From positions 1 through 41,991 of the forward strand of contig JACMRA010000004.1 of NCBI GenBank assembly GCA_014376695.1: a stretch of 41,991 bases of DNA, in the 5' to 3' direction. The position numbers and the translations under genes were made by a program. The stretch is from Minisyncoccota bacterium. GTDB lineage: Bacteria > Patescibacteriota > JACMRA01. The notes under the pieces are model-generated. The model made no database searches. It worked only from the letters and a program-made list of their open reading frames with translations, and had not been told where the DNA came from. This document shows, in pieces, positions 769-36,534 of this stretch. Numbering within the stretch: the first letter of the stretch is position 1; each line of letters opens with the position of its first letter.

Positions 769-1302
769 TGGTGGAGATAGAGGGATTCGCACCCTCGTCC
801 AACTGGTTAACCAATCGATGCTTTTGTCAGGCCAAAAACTTAGTCAATAAATTGTTTTTGAGTTAATACTGATAATGATTGACGCAAGCTCAGTAACAAC
901 TACTGTTTGGATTCCGAAATATTACTAAACAGTAAATAATATCAAGTTACTTGTGGTTGGTTTGTGACTAAAGCGAATATAACTCCAAGTACAGGGTCAT
1001 ATAACGCTCAGTACCTGATTAGTCGATTCTCGCAGATGTCGGTTAGGACAATCTGGTGGGATTAGCACTCTTAGGTTGTGCCTAGGCAGTTTGTAAGGAG
1101 AGTCGATCGGGTACGCCACAGTTAGCTGTTACGCTAGCTACAACTTGATCAATTTTACTTGAACAGTAGTCGGAGAAACGTACAAACGCTGTGGCAGTTG
1201 TAGAAGTTGATTCTGCATTTATGGTTTTGGAATTTTTGAAGTATTCCAACTTTAATGGCACATCGTTTAATTAAATCCAGCTGTCAAACCTAAGATATCC
1301 CC
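769..1302 (-). ncRNA. ssrA: Transfer-messenger RNA (tmRNA), unusually long
   Basis: tmRNA rescues stalled ribosomes by acting as tRNA-Ala and then as a template for a degradation tag. The 5' end GGGGATA pairs over 7 bp with TATCTCC before A-CCA at the 3' end, and this stem includes the G3-U wobble that marks alanine identity. The T arm reads GAGGGTGCGAATCCCTC. CGATG near nucleotides 38-42 pairs with CATCG near the 3' end, as in the long H2 helix. A hairpin (TTGGAAT...ATTCCAA) sits where pseudoknot 1 belongs, and a GCA resume codon follows at nucleotide 87 (1216-1214), matching the position in E. coli. At 534 nt it is well above the usual 350-400. From GCA the frame stays open for 44 codons to TAG at 1084-1082. 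The tRNA-like ends are certain; the tag reading is inference. Confidence 0.92.
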
Positions 1303-17140: not shown

Positions 17141-17217
17141 TGGTGATCTCGGCGCGAGTCGAACGCACAACCTTTTCCTTAGGACGGAACTGCTCTATCC
17201 AATTGAGCTACAAGACC
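17141..17217 (-). tRNA. trnR: tRNA-Arg (anticodon CCT)
   Basis: The minus strand folds as a complete 77-nt tRNA with encoded CCA. The acceptor GGTCTTG pairs with CGAGATC (two G-U wobbles), the D arm is GCTC...GAGC, the anticodon loop is GTCCTAA giving CCT, and the T arm is GTGCG-TTCGACT-CGCGC. The outermost anticodon-stem pair is a G-A mismatch. It reads AGG arginine codons. Confidence 0.95.
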
Positions 17218-27763: not shown

Positions 27764-29065
27764 TTACCATACTTGGACGCTAGCGCGCTCGACGGTTCCA
27801 GTTGGCGCTGTAAATTTGTCCATGGAAGCTAACGAATCGGCTGGAATATTAGACGCCGTGGCGGGCTCGACCTTGACCGCATCTTGATATGCCATAAATA
27901 GCGACTGCCATATATTCAATAACTCCTCGCGAAAAATATAATTATCATGAGGTAGGTAGTAATATAGATCGTTCAAATGGGTTGCAAACTCAAATCTATT
28001 ATTGATTATCTCCTTGTTGACTCGCAAAAAATCCAAACAAATTTCAATAGTTTTGAGCTTCGGAATGTTGCTGTTGATACTATTATTATGGGTCATTAAT
28101 TGGCGATAAATTTGCTCCATGAAATATCTGGCCGATGGCTCAAACTGAGTATGGGTGTTGATGGGATTCTTAAACCAGCTGTCAATAAATTTGTTCCAGC
28201 GTTTGTCGAATTGCCTGGCGAAGTGTTTGAGGTCGGGATTGCAAGTACTGCTAAGGGCCGATTTGACCTGCACAGGAATTTTGGGCTTGAAGCCGAGCCT
28301 TGCCCGTAGTCCAATTCGCTGAGCGGTAATTGCGGGCTTTGACTGTGGTTTTTGATTTTGGGTTATAATCTCTTGGCGAAACTCCGCAAAAAATTTGAGG
28401 ATGGAGAGTTTTTGGAGAGTGCTAAGATACCCATTTTGATAGAGTTTTTGCAGTTTTTGGACTAAGGTACATCGAACTCCTACCCCAGAAATCTGTCGCG
28501 TCTGATTATACAGCGTCCAGAGGTTATTGATATTCTTGAGTTGCTCGGATAAATTAAATTCACGCTTAATATGATAGGCCCGAAATAGGCCTAGTCGGCT
28601 CCGGGTAAGATAACTACCAAGTTTGCCAAAGAATTGATTATCGCCTCGCGCCTGACTAACTAGCCAATTGACCAAACTTTGCCAATTATTATCCAATTTG
28701 GTCTGGAGGTTATCGGAATTATTGTAACTAAGTACCGAGAAATCACGTCGAATTGTAGGCAGGTGGGCTAGATTTACCGGGTCGCCGTAGCTTAATTTAT
28801 GCGAAATACTTGGCAGGAGAATCAAATGCGAATGCAACGAACTATCGGCCTTGTCATAAGACTCCAGCAAAACATCTTTGGAGATAATCCGGCTTTTTAG
28901 GATGACGACACTTTGATTAATTAATTCGTTGCCGGGCTTGATTGCCAGCCTAAGAGGTATTTTGACGACCGAAACATTTGCCAGTGAATTGACTGGTAAG
29001 GGTGTCGATTGGACTATTTTTTTGGATAGCTTGATCGGCGGGGTTTTGACTCTATCTCCTAACAT
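27764..29065 (-). CDS. Hypothetical protein, 433 aa
   Basis: I do not recognise this protein. It is basic overall (many Lys/Arg), has no signal peptide or membrane span, and appears mainly helical in its central part (about residues 120-400), with Trp-rich motifs (NNWQSLVNWLVSQA, FDKRWNKFIDSWF). The N-terminal 110 residues look beta-rich. The last 30 residues are Ala/Pro/Thr-rich and end in VQVW. It converges on the anchored protein gene with 17 bp between stops and diverges from tyrS. TATAGA lies close to its ATG as a possible -10 box. A nucleic-acid-binding role would fit the charge but is not shown by any motif. Confidence 0.7.
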   Translation of the reverse strand: MLGDRVKTPPIKLSKKIVQSTPLPVNSLANVSVVKIPLRLAIKPGNELINQSVVILKSRIISKDVLLESYDKADSSLHSHLILLPSISHKLSYGDPVNLAHLPTIRRDFSVLSYNNSDNLQTKLDNNWQSLVNWLVSQARGDNQFFGKLGSYLTRSRLGLFRAYHIKREFNLSEQLKNINNLWTLYNQTRQISGVGVRCTLVQKLQKLYQNGYLSTLQKLSILKFFAEFRQEIITQNQKPQSKPAITAQRIGLRARLGFKPKIPVQVKSALSSTCNPDLKHFARQFDKRWNKFIDSWFKNPINTHTQFEPSARYFMEQIYRQLMTHNNSINSNIPKLKTIEICLDFLRVNKEIINNRFEFATHLNDLYYYLPHDNYIFREELLNIWQSLFMAYQDAVKVEPATASNIPADSLASMDKFTAPTGTVERASVQVW

Positions 29066-30406: not shown

Positions 30407-31849
30407 ATGTCCATCGACCGAGCAACTCAAAAGCCAAGTGACCAAGCCAAACTCCTAAAACTGGAACAAACCTTCGACGATATTCAAACTCGTATTGATA
30501 AGGGTGGAGAAGTTCAAACCGATCTAGCAGAACAACTTCTAATTTCTTCGAGTCCGTTAACAAGTCAATTAACCGCCGCCCAAGTCTTTCCCGGAGGTCC
30601 AATTTCGACGGAAACTCTTCATTCAGATATTCAGACTAGTTTACAAAGAATTAGCTTATTATTAGACGACTCTGGCAATATAGAAAACATTCTCAAACTA
30701 GCTAAATTCGTTTCTGCTTGTGCCATTTCTATTGCAAGTGCCTACGTTGAACTTGTTACGGCTGAAGCAGGAAGGGACGATCTCTCAGTAAAATCCCGAG
30801 AAGTCATCCTAATAATGCGAATCGAGGAGGAGCTACTTAAATCTATAGAAGGTTATTTACAGAGTCAACAGGGACGCGAACCTCTCACTATCAGAGACCT
30901 CATTGACAAAATCAGACTTGAAAACATGCAGCTTGATAAAAATGCCATTCTCACGCTAATCACCCTATACCAAGAAGTTCTTTTTGGAAGATACTTTTGG
31001 ATGCCCGCCGAGATACTTCACGGTCTAGAAAAACCAGACAATATCCTAATCCCACCAGTCCCGGACAGCATTAGAGTGGACTTTGACAATCTAAATACCT
31101 CCGTCACCGCCAGAGAAAATGACATTGCAGATATAGAAGAATCTACGCGTAAAATTCATTCAATCTATACCGGTCTACACGAGACATCTCAGCCGATACA
31201 TACAAATAAGAGGGATGATAGTAATTTACCTAGTGCCCCAACTATTATCAAAGGACTAGAGGCGATTGCTGATTTACCAAATCTACCACAAAATCTAAAA
31301 AACGGATTAACTAAACTCTTGGCCAAAGTCAATAATCCGTCTGATATTGGACAGGCATTATACATTGATAAATTTTTCGGGCTATACAAACAAGAACTTA
31401 CCGATGTTGTAAATTCGATTCTGTTACCGCAAGAAACTCTAAATCGATATATTTTGATTGCCCTCTCCATCCTAACAAGCAATTACGACAATTGGAGAAG
31501 CTTCGACGGTAAATGGTCTTCAAGAAGCTTTCTACCCATACTATCCCCACTTTTAAGATTCGCCAAAGATCATAAGCTCGGCCAATATCCAATGCAAAGC
31601 ACACATAACAACACCGTAGAAGAGTCTTTCTATTTAAGGCAAATTAGAGCCTTGAGAGAATCTATCCGCGCACTCGGTAACGAAGTATGCAAGATCGACT
31701 CCTCAATCGCCAGTGCGATACTAACTGCCCTAAGCGAAACAGAGAGTCAAAAGACCATCTCTCCTAACGCTTTAATACAGGCTCTCGTAGACGCTATCCG
31801 AGATAATTTAATACCACCTACCCAACCAACTCCTAATCACACCGACTGA
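30407..31849 (+). CDS. Hypothetical helical protein, 480 aa
   Basis: I do not recognise this protein. It is acidic to neutral, without signal peptide or membrane spans, and looks almost wholly alpha-helical, with Leu-rich amphipathic segments such as LLKLEQTFDDIQTRI near the start and LPNLPQNLKNGLTKLLAKV near 285-303. No catalytic motif is visible. After its TGA, a shifted frame continues with plausible coding sequence (FLDALGIAINQAKILPQVEQ) to TAA at about 31922, so the original C-terminus may have been about 20 residues longer before a frameshift. It follows tyrS by 53 bp on the same strand. Confidence 0.7.
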   Translation: MSIDRATQKPSDQAKLLKLEQTFDDIQTRIDKGGEVQTDLAEQLLISSSPLTSQLTAAQVFPGGPISTETLHSDIQTSLQRISLLLDDSGNIENILKLAKFVSACAISIASAYVELVTAEAGRDDLSVKSREVILIMRIEEELLKSIEGYLQSQQGREPLTIRDLIDKIRLENMQLDKNAILTLITLYQEVLFGRYFWMPAEILHGLEKPDNILIPPVPDSIRVDFDNLNTSVTARENDIADIEESTRKIHSIYTGLHETSQPIHTNKRDDSNLPSAPTIIKGLEAIADLPNLPQNLKNGLTKLLAKVNNPSDIGQALYIDKFFGLYKQELTDVVNSILLPQETLNRYILIALSILTSNYDNWRSFDGKWSSRSFLPILSPLLRFAKDHKLGQYPMQSTHNNTVEESFYLRQIRALRESIRALGNEVCKIDSSIASAILTALSETESQKTISPNALIQALVDAIRDNLIPPTQPTPNHTD

Positions 31850-32390: not shown

Positions 32391-33020
32391 CTACCCAACC
32401 AAATCCATAATCTGACCGATCTCCACTTGGCTCAAAGTTGGCTTGCAAGAAATAACAATGGTTGGGATATGATATTTGGACACGAGGCGACTGGCGATTA
32501 GACCAATAATCCCCTTACTAATACTTGACTCTATCCAAATCATCGGGCTACCGGTATGAACCTGGTTGATTGCCTCCTGCTCCAAATCGGCCAAAATAGA
32601 CTTAACTTCGGCCTTGCGGGCTTGGTTAGTCTCTATAAGATCAGCCACATAATATTCGATAGTCGACGATACCTTGTAATCCGAGTGGGCAAACGGCAAC
32701 AAATCATTATCTTGGGTGCCAAGCAGGCTGGCAATAGACTTGTAGGCGTGGGACATCCGACCCGAGCTGTTGAGAATTGGGGATAATGTGAAAGCGATAT
32801 CTTGGCTAGAGAGGGTTAGGCCTGATTGGATTTTGGCCGTGAGCCCCGTCTGAGCCATCAGCTCGCTTAACCCAACAATACCGTGGTTACCGCTGGCCAA
32901 TATCTTAAGTCCCGCCTTGACGAGCAGGCGATTGGTTGGATCGATGATGCTTTGACAGTCGGCCACGGTGCCAATGGCCACAAGCGGTAAAAAACGATTA
33001 AGACGACTAACACGAGACAT
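32391..33020 (-). pseudogene. recJ: RecJ exonuclease middle fragment
   Basis: This 209-aa frame matches only the central part of RecJ, the single-strand 5'-3' exonuclease. LPLVAIGTVADC and NRLLVKAGLKIL are the end of the DHH domain. LSPILNSSGRM and KGIIGLIASRLVSKYHIPTI are the DHHA1 region with its GxVG-type core. The catalytic DHH and Asp motifs of the first roughly 180 residues are missing, and the protein stops soon after DHHA1 with an unrelated tail. It cannot be an active nuclease alone. There are no internal stops or frameshifts, so truncation is recent or the piece is kept for another role. It lies 8 bp after a TopA fragment of the same kind and may be transcribed with it. Confidence 0.75.
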
Positions 33021-33028
33021 AAAAAAAA

Positions 33029-33964
33029 CTAATTATTTCGCCAAAGGGCTTTATGACCCAAGAAAACTGTCTGGGTGTGCGATCCTGTAAAACGGTTATC
33101 GATGTCGTTAGCTAACTCAAAAGTCGTAATTTCGCGGATTTCGTCGGCCATTTGACTGGCAATAGCTTGTCGCCAAATCAGATCGTAGACCTTAAGTAAG
33201 CGAGGTTCGATTGAGGATTTGAGTTGCTCTGGGCTAAGGAGCGGGTTGGTTGGGCGGATAGCTTCGTGGGCTTCTTGAGCGTTTTTGGAGCGGGATTTGT
33301 AAGTTCGGATGCCGTCAAAGTTATATTCTGGGAATTTATTATCGATGTAGGATTTGATGCTGGCCAGGGCGTCTTTGGAAATTGTTACGCTGTCGGTTCG
33401 CATGTAGGTTATTAAGGCCTGATTTTGACCGTTGATTTCTACGCCTTCATAGAGTTTTTGGGCTATTTGCATGGTGATTTTTGGGTTGAGACCGAGCTTG
33501 GACGAAGCGGCTTGCTGGAGAGTGGAGGTGATATATGGCGCCGTGGGTCTAATTTTCATTTCTTTGGCCGTTACGCTCTTGACCGTGTAGATTGGGTCAA
33601 CTTCTAAATTGCCAATAATTTTGTGAACATTGGCTGTCCCGGAGATTGAAGCTTCAATTTTGGTTCCGCGGATGTAAGTTGGTCGCAAAATTATATCCTC
33701 TTCGTTGACATCTGGCTCGACTTCCTCGGCCTGCTCCTCACCAGTTGACTTAGTTGCCAAGTTGATTTGGACAAAGTTATTGCCATCGTTAATTGCCGTC
33801 AATATCAATCCTTGAATCTGAGAACTAATCAAATTAACTTCCCTAATATCGCTCTTGGGCGTCAGGCTAGCGTATAGCTTTTCTACGCCACTTCGAACTC
33901 CGAGCTGATCTAATACCGCAGCGTCCACCCCTTGTTTATCCATATAAGCTTGCAAACTAATCAT
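33029..33964 (-). pseudogene. topA: DNA topoisomerase I middle fragment
   Basis: A 311-aa frame matching only the central region of type IA topoisomerase. PTAPYITSTLQQAASSKLG, the catalytic-tyrosine segment ITYMRTDSVTISKDAL, QEAHEAIRPT and LIWRQAIASQM are all clear. The N-terminal Toprim domain (metal binding, about 150 residues) and the whole C-terminal third are missing; the frame ends in a short unrelated tail (TVFLGHKALWRNN). It keeps the tyrosine but not the acidic residues needed for cleavage, so normal activity is excluded. The frame is otherwise intact and has a good promoter. It could be a decaying partial copy, or a retained DNA-binding domain. Confidence 0.75.
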
Positions 33965-33994: not shown

Positions 33995-34023
33995 AGTAAA
34001 CCAGAACGGATTGCAATTGTCAA
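33995..34023 (-). promoter_or_regulatory. Promoter of TopA-fragment gene
   Basis: TTGACA (34023-34018), 17 bp, TTTACT (34000-33995), about 30 bp before the ATG at 33964. It suggests the TopA and RecJ pieces are still transcribed. Confidence 0.55.
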
Positions 34024-34094: not shown

Positions 34095-36041
34095 ATGACA
34101 TCTATGGAAATTATAAAGTCTCCCCGACAAAGCCAATCAATGACTCAGGATGCGTTTCGATCCCTTTTGGAGGGTTATTCAATGAAATACTTAAAGACAA
34201 TAACTAGGATAGGTGGCCCACAAGCACCTGGTTTACTATACGAATTATTAAACCCAACGACCGAGATATCAGAAAGCTTACTCCAAGCCAAATTAGATGG
34301 TGCGGACACCAAAACTGGAATTTATCCCGTGCCGGATTCGGGTACTACGCATCATATGCTCCGAAGCGAACGAAGCCTAGTATCGTATTTAGCAGCCATT
34401 TGTGGATTTATAATTAATACTAATGAGGAGCCTAAGAGCAAAGAAATATTGGATGGTGATTTAACAGATGGTTTGGACGAGCCATTTGAAGTTATCGCCA
34501 TCGAAACAAAAAAAGCTCCCTTAATTATAAACCTAAGTGAACTAATCGTATCAACCTCTCTCGCCTATGAAATAAAAAGCTCTCCATTTGTTCCCTTACT
34601 TCTTCAACGACTACAGAAAAAGCCGTTAGTAAACAAAACTCAAAGCACCGTAGACAAAGCGATAGCTGATTTGGGTCAAACCCCACCTCACATAAGCAAG
34701 CAAGTTCTACCTAATCTCTTACGGCTTTTAATTGAGGATGGGACGATAGAATTAGCTAATTTGGTCGAGGGTCAAACTTTACCAGGCTTGCTGGCAAAAA
34801 TTAAAAAAGACTCGCCAAAAATTAAAAAGTTAAATGTTCCTGCCCAAGAACCTAAAGATGCAACAAGCAAATTAAGCAATCCTTTTGATTCAGATCAAGA
34901 AAAAGTTGAAAAAGTTCCAATCGACCTAAAAACAGCGATTGAATATATTAAATCTAATTTTAATATTCTAGATCCTATGCTTCTAGGTTTGTTAAGACCT
35001 GTGTTCGATAGCCCAAATACACTAAAACAGTCTCCAATTACAACAAAGGCCCAGCAAAATAGTCTCAGTCGTGAATATCCAACTCCCTCCATCACTAAAC
35101 ACAGCCTCCTCCCCGCCTTGGTTTATCTCGTGAAAAATGGTTCAATAAACATCAAGGAGATTGATTCAGCAGATGAGAATTTAAAAGATAAAATCGACAC
35201 CCTCTTAAAAAGTTTTAATCTCACATCCAAAAAGCTTGCTAAAGCCCCCAAAACCGAAAAAATTGCTACCCTTAATCAGACTCCCTCAAACCAAGGTGTA
35301 AAAGGCATGCATAAAAAAGAAAACCCACATCAAATAGTTAGGGTAATTAAGTCGAGATATCTCTCAGCATCGCAACAGCAACCAAGCGCTCAAACACCAA
35401 ATTTACCCGAAACCAAACCAAAAAGTCCAATACTTTTAAATAGGAAACAACAACTAAATGACTGCATCGGCCAATTACAACCAGTTAATTTAGGGGTGTT
35501 AGCAAAACGAATGACCCAAAAGAATAACTATATAAATCCGGCCACTAAAGAAGAGTTGGCCAGGGGCAAAGAAGCTGAAGAAAAAATAGTGGCAATTCTT
35601 AAGGGAATGAATATCACTGTAATACCGACGATCCCGGGTTCTCCCGTAGATGAAGCTAGTGGTGATATTATAATAATGCTTATAATTCCTAATTCCGAAA
35701 AGATCCCACCTACGAAACGTTCCGACAGGGGGTGGCTATCTGGGGCTGCACTATTAACCAAACTTAAAGACTCTCAATCAATTGATTCGAATAAGATTCC
35801 CAAAATTGAACTAGATAAACTTTATGCTATATTTCAAATCGATGTGACCTCAGGGAAAATTGGAATTGAGAGGAAGTTTAAAAAAGCAGTATCCGACGGC
35901 CTTCGGGACGGTGTCGATTATCGTAAGTCACTGTGTATAATCGCCCCGTCAGCTAGCGATAAAACAACAAAAGAAAACCTCCAAGGTTTGATTAATCATG
36001 CCAGGGCTTCAATCAATGAATCGTTACATAGTTCCAACTAG
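34095..36041 (+). CDS. Unknown 648-aa protein with internal repeats and possible nuclease-like C-terminus
   Basis: I do not recognise this protein. Two regions of about 100 residues repeat each other: SPFVPLLLQRLQ...ISKQVLPNLLRLLIEDGTIE (about 170-245) and LDPMLLGLLRPVF...ITKHSLLPALVYLVKNGSIN (about 290-365), each followed by a Lys-rich helix. A disordered Gln/Pro/Lys linker (about 385-455) leads to a C-terminal domain (about 490-640). There, a helix with Glu (ARGKEAEEKIVAILKG), a strand with Asp (EASGDIIIMLII) and a strand with Asp and Lys (YAIFQIDVTSGKIGIERK) follow the order of a PD-(D/E)XK nuclease core. That reading is tentative. No signal peptide or membrane span. It is divergent from the TopA/RecJ fragments. 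Confidence 0.7.
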   Translation: MTSMEIIKSPRQSQSMTQDAFRSLLEGYSMKYLKTITRIGGPQAPGLLYELLNPTTEISESLLQAKLDGADTKTGIYPVPDSGTTHHMLRSERSLVSYLAAICGFIINTNEEPKSKEILDGDLTDGLDEPFEVIAIETKKAPLIINLSELIVSTSLAYEIKSSPFVPLLLQRLQKKPLVNKTQSTVDKAIADLGQTPPHISKQVLPNLLRLLIEDGTIELANLVEGQTLPGLLAKIKKDSPKIKKLNVPAQEPKDATSKLSNPFDSDQEKVEKVPIDLKTAIEYIKSNFNILDPMLLGLLRPVFDSPNTLKQSPITTKAQQNSLSREYPTPSITKHSLLPALVYLVKNGSINIKEIDSADENLKDKIDTLLKSFNLTSKKLAKAPKTEKIATLNQTPSNQGVKGMHKKENPHQIVRVIKSRYLSASQQQPSAQTPNLPETKPKSPILLNRKQQLNDCIGQLQPVNLGVLAKRMTQKNNYINPATKEELARGKEAEEKIVAILKGMNITVIPTIPGSPVDEASGDIIIMLIIPNSEKIPPTKRSDRGWLSGAALLTKLKDSQSIDSNKIPKIELDKLYAIFQIDVTSGKIGIERKFKKAVSDGLRDGVDYRKSLCIIAPSASDKTTKENLQGLINHARASINESLHSSN

Positions 36042-36105: not shown

Positions 36106-36534
36106 ATGACTCCACAGCTCACCAAAACCATCGCTAACATAATAACTTCTAATCTAATTGCCCTAGCTACAAAGCTAGGCCGGCCACTAGAAACCCTGCT
36201 TACCAAAAGCCAATTAATCGAATTAGCCCAGCTATTCCAAGACCAAAGTATCAATAATCAAGGACTGCAAGTGGCCATCGAACATTTAATCGCCAATCCG
36301 TCTGACACGGTAACCAGCACAGTAAAATCGCTCAATCTAATGCAGGTCAATGACGAATCAGCTCTAATTGGCTACGTACAAACAGTAATTAATAACAGCC
36401 CCAAACAAGTCGAAGAATTCAAAGCTGGTAAGCTAAATATTATTGGCTATTTAGTCGGGCAATGTATGAAAGAGTCCAACAAATCAGGTAATCCAGCCAA
36501 ATTCAAAGAACTTCTTGAAAAAGAGCTAAGCTAA
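36106..36534 (+). CDS. Stand-alone GatB/YqeY tail domain
   Basis: This 142-aa protein ends in a clear GatB C-terminal (YqeY-type) domain: ALIGYVQTVINNSPKQVEEF, KAGKLNIIGYLVGQCMKES and GNPAKFKELLEKELS. In GatCAB this helical tail binds tRNA during transamidation of Glu-tRNA-Gln or Asp-tRNA-Asn. The GatB catalytic cradle is absent. The first 75 residues are helical and may be the other half of the tail fold. It could be a YqeY-like free protein, or the surviving end of a broken gatB. It stops 2 bp before the next ATG, so the two are translationally linked. A TAGAAT box about 20 bp before the ATG may be its -10. Confidence 0.8.
   Translation: MTPQLTKTIANIITSNLIALATKLGRPLETLLTKSQLIELAQLFQDQSINNQGLQVAIEHLIANPSDTVTSTVKSLNLMQVNDESALIGYVQTVINNSPKQVEEFKAGKLNIIGYLVGQCMKESNKSGNPAKFKELLEKELS

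Follow-up and report, generated by a model that had tools for sequence, protein, structure and literature searches.

Topoisomerase I and RecJ Are Probably Each Encoded by Three Separate Genes in a Patescibacterial Genome

We examined a 41,991-nucleotide stretch of DNA from a Minisyncoccota bacterium (GenBank assembly GCA_014376695.1, contig JACMRA010000004.1, positions 1 to 41,991; hereafter, the window), in which two adjacent genes encode only the middle thirds of topoisomerase I (TopA) and of the RecJ exonuclease. We conclude, with a probability of about 0.85, that TopA and RecJ are naturally split into three genes each, that they belong to a set of at least ten genes split by progressive fission, and that the products reassemble noncovalently. 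From the sequence, we infer that all of the polypeptides are made and come together in this way as working enzymes.

Results

The genome that holds the window comprises 955,781 bases in 16 contigs (C1–C16) and is 78% complete; the two genes are on C13. We read stretches of sequence amounting to 46% of this genome (438 kb) and to about 1 Mb in four relatives. For comparison, we used five family members (G001–G005) and genomes of other families, including G006, G020, G026, and G028. The relatives’ records are labeled as a candidate division SR1 metagenome-assembled genome, a Gracilibacteria metagenome-assembled genome, and otherwise Patescibacteria or Peregrinibacteria. The main features of the locus are as follows.

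33029..33964, minus strand: TopA-M, 311 amino acids corresponding to domains II-III (arch/gate) in the middle third of type I DNA topoisomerase and carrying the ITYMRTDS active-site motif
33782..33964, minus strand: N-terminal extension of TopA-M (residues 1-61), a predicted four-helix domain that is absent from intact TopA
33021..33028, minus strand: spacer TTTTTTTT, 8 bases separating the stop of TopA-M from the start of RecJ-M, read from the sequence
32391..33020, minus strand: RecJ-M, 209 amino acids making up the middle third of RecJ exonuclease, which follows the DHH motifs and includes the first part of DHHA1

An earlier note on this DNA had described two frames 8 bp apart that are free of internal stops, and both are present as described. 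Its claim that each encodes only an internal part, TopA without Toprim and C terminus and RecJ without DHH, is borne out by profile searches. TopA-M matches positions 230-433 of TIGR01051 (bacterial topA, 632 positions) and lacks Toprim, and RecJ-M matches positions 198-365 of TIGR00644 (recJ, 546 positions) and lacks the DHH motifs. The C-terminal tails that the note called short and unrelated are indeed very short (about 4 amino acids in TopA-M and 18 in RecJ-M); the notable addition to TopA-M is instead its N-terminal extension.

The Missing Thirds Are Encoded at Other Loci

Searching the whole genome with the topA model gave exactly three partial matches: TopA-N on C11 (positions 1-203), TopA-M on C13 (230-434), and TopA-C on C16 (443-628). 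Together, they carry all of the TopA motifs, with FATDEDREGEA (Toprim) in TopA-N, ITYMRTDS in TopA-M, and GIGRPSTYAS in TopA-C. RecJ is distributed in the same manner, with RecJ-N (the DHH part) on C2, RecJ-M on C13, and RecJ-C on C10, and its motifs are likewise complete (DFDTD and DHH in RecJ-N, SSGRMSHA in RecJ-M, and GGHPCAAGF in RecJ-C). A contig scan of the genome with TopA-M itself returned nothing.

Alignment to the relatives shows how closely the pieces complement one another. TopA-M aligns with residues about 224-460 of intact TopA, and at the M|C joint the middle piece ends at 450-460 and TopA-C begins at 458-467. RecJ-M aligns with residues about 217-391 of the relatives’ intact 590-residue RecJ, ending at 387-391, and RecJ-C begins at about 394-395. 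Thus, about seven residues or fewer are lost at the M|C joints of the two enzymes; a variable linker lies at the N|M joints.

The earlier note had proposed that the two fragments serve as dominant-negative or DNA-binding subunits of a complex beside full enzymes, and both do lie in one possible operon. However, no full-length topA or recJ was found anywhere in this 78%-complete assembly, and the parts missing from the window are encoded on C11, C16, C2, and C10. Moreover, a tRNA synthetase, GatB, LepA, and TsaD, which are unrelated to any DNA complex, are split likewise. The chance that the subunit proposal is correct is close to negligible. Since the complementary pieces lie at other loci and no full-length copy was found, the fragments are pieces of the two enzymes themselves.

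Both enzymes are intact in the five family members, each in a single frame (740-777 amino acids for TopA and 593-650 for RecJ), so the fragment pair, for which the note had suggested a search in relatives, does not recur there. Across matched genomes of the phylum, the other TopA frames span 554-846 amino acids, compared with 353 in this genome. Identity of the pieces to their counterparts in relatives, set against identity of the intact relatives to one another, was 68 vs. 73% for TopA-N, 47 vs. 55% for TopA-M, and 53 vs. 55% for TopA-C; the values for RecJ-N, RecJ-M, and RecJ-C were 52 vs. 54%, 53 vs. 56%, and 39 vs. 36%, respectively.

These figures bear on the idea that the fragments are pseudogene pieces decaying after gene breakage, which fits single fragments without full catalytic cores. 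The earlier note had doubted simple decay, and we agree: the frames contain no stops or frameshifts, every complementary piece is retained, and divergence from relatives is comparable to that of intact genes. In addition, other splits have been retained across genera, and no intact replacement was found in the assembly. Decay is, therefore, highly improbable.

At Least Ten Enzymes Are Encoded in Pieces

TopA and RecJ are among at least ten complete split sets in this genome, five in three pieces (TopA, RecJ, LepA, alanyl-tRNA synthetase [AlaRS], and a UvrD-like helicase) and five in two (GatB, UvrD, UvrC, TsaD, and Der). The pieces occupy noncontiguous loci, and every one of them has separate start and stop codons. 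Those of the enzymes other than TopA and RecJ are located as follows.

LepA, three pieces: C8, C2, and C11
AlaRS, three pieces: C12, C14, and C11
UvrD-like helicase, three pieces: C14:2630-3937, C14:31623-32261, and C3:18484-20031
GatB, two pieces: N-terminal part (residues 3-336) at C8:48054-49154 and C-terminal part at 36106-36534 of the window, plus strand
UvrD, two pieces: C10 and C11
UvrC, two pieces: C15 and C6
TsaD, two pieces: C11 and C10
Der, two pieces: C10 and C12

For Dus, the N-terminal piece alone was found in the sequence read and no partner was seen, and Dus was left out of the count of split sets. Splitting does not extend to all genes: among ortholog groups of at least 300 amino acids that are intact in at least two relatives and present in this genome’s sample, 4 of 17 are split (TopA, RecJ, UvrC, and Dus). 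A genome-wide search for seven further genes found four intact and none split, with two not found and one unclear. In one and the same screen, split-like and full frames numbered 19 and 33 in this genome, 1 and 40 in G004, and 3 and 26 in G003. The screen of G001 gave 12 and 23, but several of its split-like frames adjoin or overlap each other on a single contig and resemble frameshifts, and the split-like frames of G001 were left out of the counts.

The cuts do not all fall alike. Those in GatB, LepA, and UvrC appear from the sequence to lie between domains; those in UvrD, in Der, and at the RecJ M|C joint probably fall inside domains, judging from the motifs at the joints. Both LepA-C and RecJ-C, like TopA-M, start with an extension, in their case of 40-80 amino acids, that has no recognizable relatives, and no homology was found among the N-terminal extensions of the three pieces.

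Since the pieces are exact complements, as in trans-spliced genes, we considered whether they might be joined into one chain through split introns or split inteins. Each piece, however, has a start and a stop of its own. The scanned pieces gave only host-enzyme family matches, with the tails and extensions matching no family, and no group I or group II introns were detected with Rfam at the TopA and RecJ loci. Predicted pairing between flanks showed no trans-splicing signal, with a mean of −52.3 kcal/mol for cognate pairs and −51.3 kcal/mol for noncognate pairs. We consider joining of this kind very unlikely.

Some Cut Sites Are Shared Across Genera

Several of the splits recur at the same sites in relatives. 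LepA is cut at model position 187|188 (1-187|188-594) throughout this order (six genomes in the set examined), with both halves present in G001, G003, G005, and this genome, the N-terminal half alone found in G002, and the C-terminal half alone found in G004. Four genomes from other families (G006, G020, G026, and G028) carry an intact LepA. A cut in AlaRS near 250|263 is common to this genome, G001, G003, G004, and G005. The intact AlaRS of G002 (L132, G002 C27) was placed outside the family with 98% support and is, therefore, foreign, either a gene replacement or a contaminant contig. In this genome, G002, and G005, the UvrD cut lies in the same short loop and the UvrC cut in the same linker; the downstream UvrD and UvrC pieces have their own starts, and the 3′ end of the UvrD C-terminal piece of G002 runs off its contig.

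To these shared splits, this genome adds second cuts in LepA and AlaRS (in AlaRS near model position 371-383, for a total of three pieces), as well as its own cuts in TopA, RecJ, GatB, and TsaD. GatB is intact in G001, G002, G003, G005, G020, and G026. The combined TopA and RecJ family tree was poorly resolved, so that a single origin of the shared UvrC and UvrD splits is not proven; the branch of this genome’s pieces was not exceptional.

Shared cut sites also bear on whether the pattern could be a chimaera of assembly or binning, with genes intact in the organism and contigs misjoined at breaks. The assembly is a draft of metagenome type, TopA and RecJ are split in it alone, and two broken genes, TopA-M and RecJ-M, meet at a single 8-bp junction, as do AlaRS-M and the N-terminal piece of the UvrD-like helicase. 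Yet LepA, AlaRS, UvrC, and UvrD are cut at the same sites in independent assemblies, and misassembly, therefore, does not explain the pattern. Pieces can also lie far apart on one contig: the LepA halves of G003 are separated by 75 kb on a single 105-kb contig, and the N-terminal and middle pieces of the UvrD-like helicase are 28 kb apart on C14. Furthermore, the remaining sides of the breaks are mostly bordered by intergenic sequence next to other genes or a tRNA, and the same census yields only 3 (G003) and 1 (G004) split-like frames against the 19 here. We judge a chimaera very unlikely.

Several observations nevertheless weigh against natural three-way fission of TopA and RecJ. The splits of both enzymes, like those of GatB and TsaD, each come from this one assembly of 16 contigs; at 78% completeness, an unassembled intact copy of any of the four is possible. 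Conservation of TopA-M is somewhat below that of its intact counterparts. The C-terminal tails are no longer than random sequence would give. Finally, AlphaFold2 (AF2) modeling covered single chains only, and the RecJ-M model was poor, with a predicted local distance difference test (pLDDT) score of 59.

In a separate observation, an 881-residue protein of G004 with weak matches to conjugation ATPases (L060) corresponds to two adjacent frames 30 bp apart in G003 (C39:64835-67516). This two-frame state possibly reflects a frameshift or fission at an early stage.

TopA-M May Form a Movable Arch with a Docking Domain

The AF2 model of TopA-M had a mean pLDDT of 78, and its best matches were TopA structures. 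Because it matches the 30-kDa fragment of the Escherichia coli enzyme (1CY9), which was itself crystallized in isolation, the model suggests that TopA-M can fold alone. The N-terminal extension is roughly 70-80 amino acids long. Its first 61 residues are predicted to form four helices (4-11, 15-21, 24-32, and 40-61), followed by a disordered linker, with pLDDT of about 71-81 over residues 1-50 and lower values beyond. No homologue of the extension was found in the sequence sampled from this genome or its relatives.

The two TopA cuts fall at what we take to be both points where the chain passes between the arch (domains II-III) and the toroid base (domains I and IV); this assignment of domains follows the general architecture of TopA and the structure matches. 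In the reassembly that we propose, TopA-N and TopA-C would form the base (Toprim and domain IV), and TopA-M would be the movable arch. The helical or N-terminal extensions of TopA-M, LepA-C, and RecJ-C are candidate docking or assembly domains that may help to hold the pieces together. The splits would have arisen through successive fission during the history of the order.

Relation to Known Split Genes

Dispersed split protein genes have hitherto been best known in Nanoarchaeota. In Nanoarchaeum equitans, 10 protein genes are split, reportedly the most among archaea, and some of the sites recur in its relative, the nanoarchaeon Nst1; the split genes include topoisomerase I, AlaRS, Glu-tRNA(Gln) amidotransferase, and a helicase (PMC3655853). 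Our case resembles these archaea in that a reduced genome carries conserved genes in pieces, so that posttranslational assembly would be needed, and in that some cut sites are common to relatives and others lineage specific. It differs in that the host is bacterial (Gracilibacteria/SR1-related), that 5 of the 10 complete sets are in three pieces rather than split two ways as in that paper, and that RecJ, LepA, UvrC, TsaD, and Der are also split.

Individual enzymes have close parallels. The Topo3 of N. equitans is a heterodimer from a split gene that relaxes negatively supercoiled DNA (PMC4200833), and like it and split reverse gyrase (PMC8185306), the TopA described here is a type IA topoisomerase in separate polypeptides; unlike these two-polypeptide enzymes, it is encoded in three, and its domain II-III arch forms a separate polypeptide. 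TopA-M is the equivalent structural unit to the 30-kDa fragment of E. coli topoisomerase I (1CY9 and 1CYY; TM-score up to 0.65 by the target), but it occurs naturally as a gene, with a helical N-terminal domain added, and is not a laboratory fragment. As in the split AlaRS of N. equitans (PMC10036535), the catalytic domain of AlaRS is on one piece and the remainder on another, although here the second cut (model 371-383) leaves three pieces.

In the open-access literature, we found no report of such split genes in Patescibacteria, and here at least ten occur in one reduced bacterial genome. Both groups have split genes for topoisomerase I, AlaRS, and Gln-tRNA amidotransferase, an overlap suggesting that the same proteins are broken in genomes that are reduced and probably symbiotic. 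We lean toward the broader view of a Patescibacteria order in which essential genes continue to undergo fission into up to three pieces per enzyme, with new helical docking domains on some downstream pieces, obligate multisubunit core enzymes, and an independent parallel in Nanoarchaeum partly on the same enzymes. Older splits common across genera, with younger ones nested inside, make the order, rate, and structural rules of fission accessible to study. In practical terms, split markers may depress completeness estimates and make essential enzymes seem missing or truncated.

Other Features of the Window and Genome

Two further features lie near the split genes.

36106..36534, plus strand: GatB-C, the C-terminal (YqeY-like) domain of GatB, a separate gene; 142 amino acids, PF02637, about positions 339-480 of the GatB models
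33995..34023, minus strand: promoter-like TTGACA-17-TTTACT ahead of TopA-M, of a kind no commoner than chance predicts

The sequence that the earlier note took for a promoter thus exists (34023 to 33995), but it carries no weight, since such sites are no commoner in the window than in shuffled sequence (6 vs. 4.7 ± 2.3). The note had also linked the fragments to the divergently transcribed gene for a 648-residue protein (34095-36041, plus strand). That protein has no Pfam or NCBIfam match and no homologue in the relatives’ sample, and nothing connects it to TopA or RecJ.

Two more window proteins, of 480 residues (30407-31849, plus strand) and 433 residues (27764-29065, minus strand), likewise have no Pfam match and no homologue in the relatives’ sample. 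RpoB and SecA of the window are intact.

An alternative code, with TGA read as glycine, was rejected as the source of the stops. The terminal codons of the TopA and RecJ pieces are TAG or TAA, and translation with code 25 did not meaningfully lengthen the N-terminal piece of the UvrD-like helicase. Known members of SR1/Gracilibacteria read TGA as glycine. In this genome’s sample, TGA ends 9 of the 250 frames of at least 200 amino acids (TAA, 153; TAG, 88), and it may be a near-unused codon. Nor do tRNA genes provide a rule for the break points; only RecJ-N and AlaRS-N adjoin one. Within the window, there is a tRNA-Arg(CCT) at 17141-17217 (minus strand) and a transfer-messenger RNA (tmRNA) at 769-1302 (minus strand), the latter matching Rfam RF00023 with a score barely above the gathering threshold.
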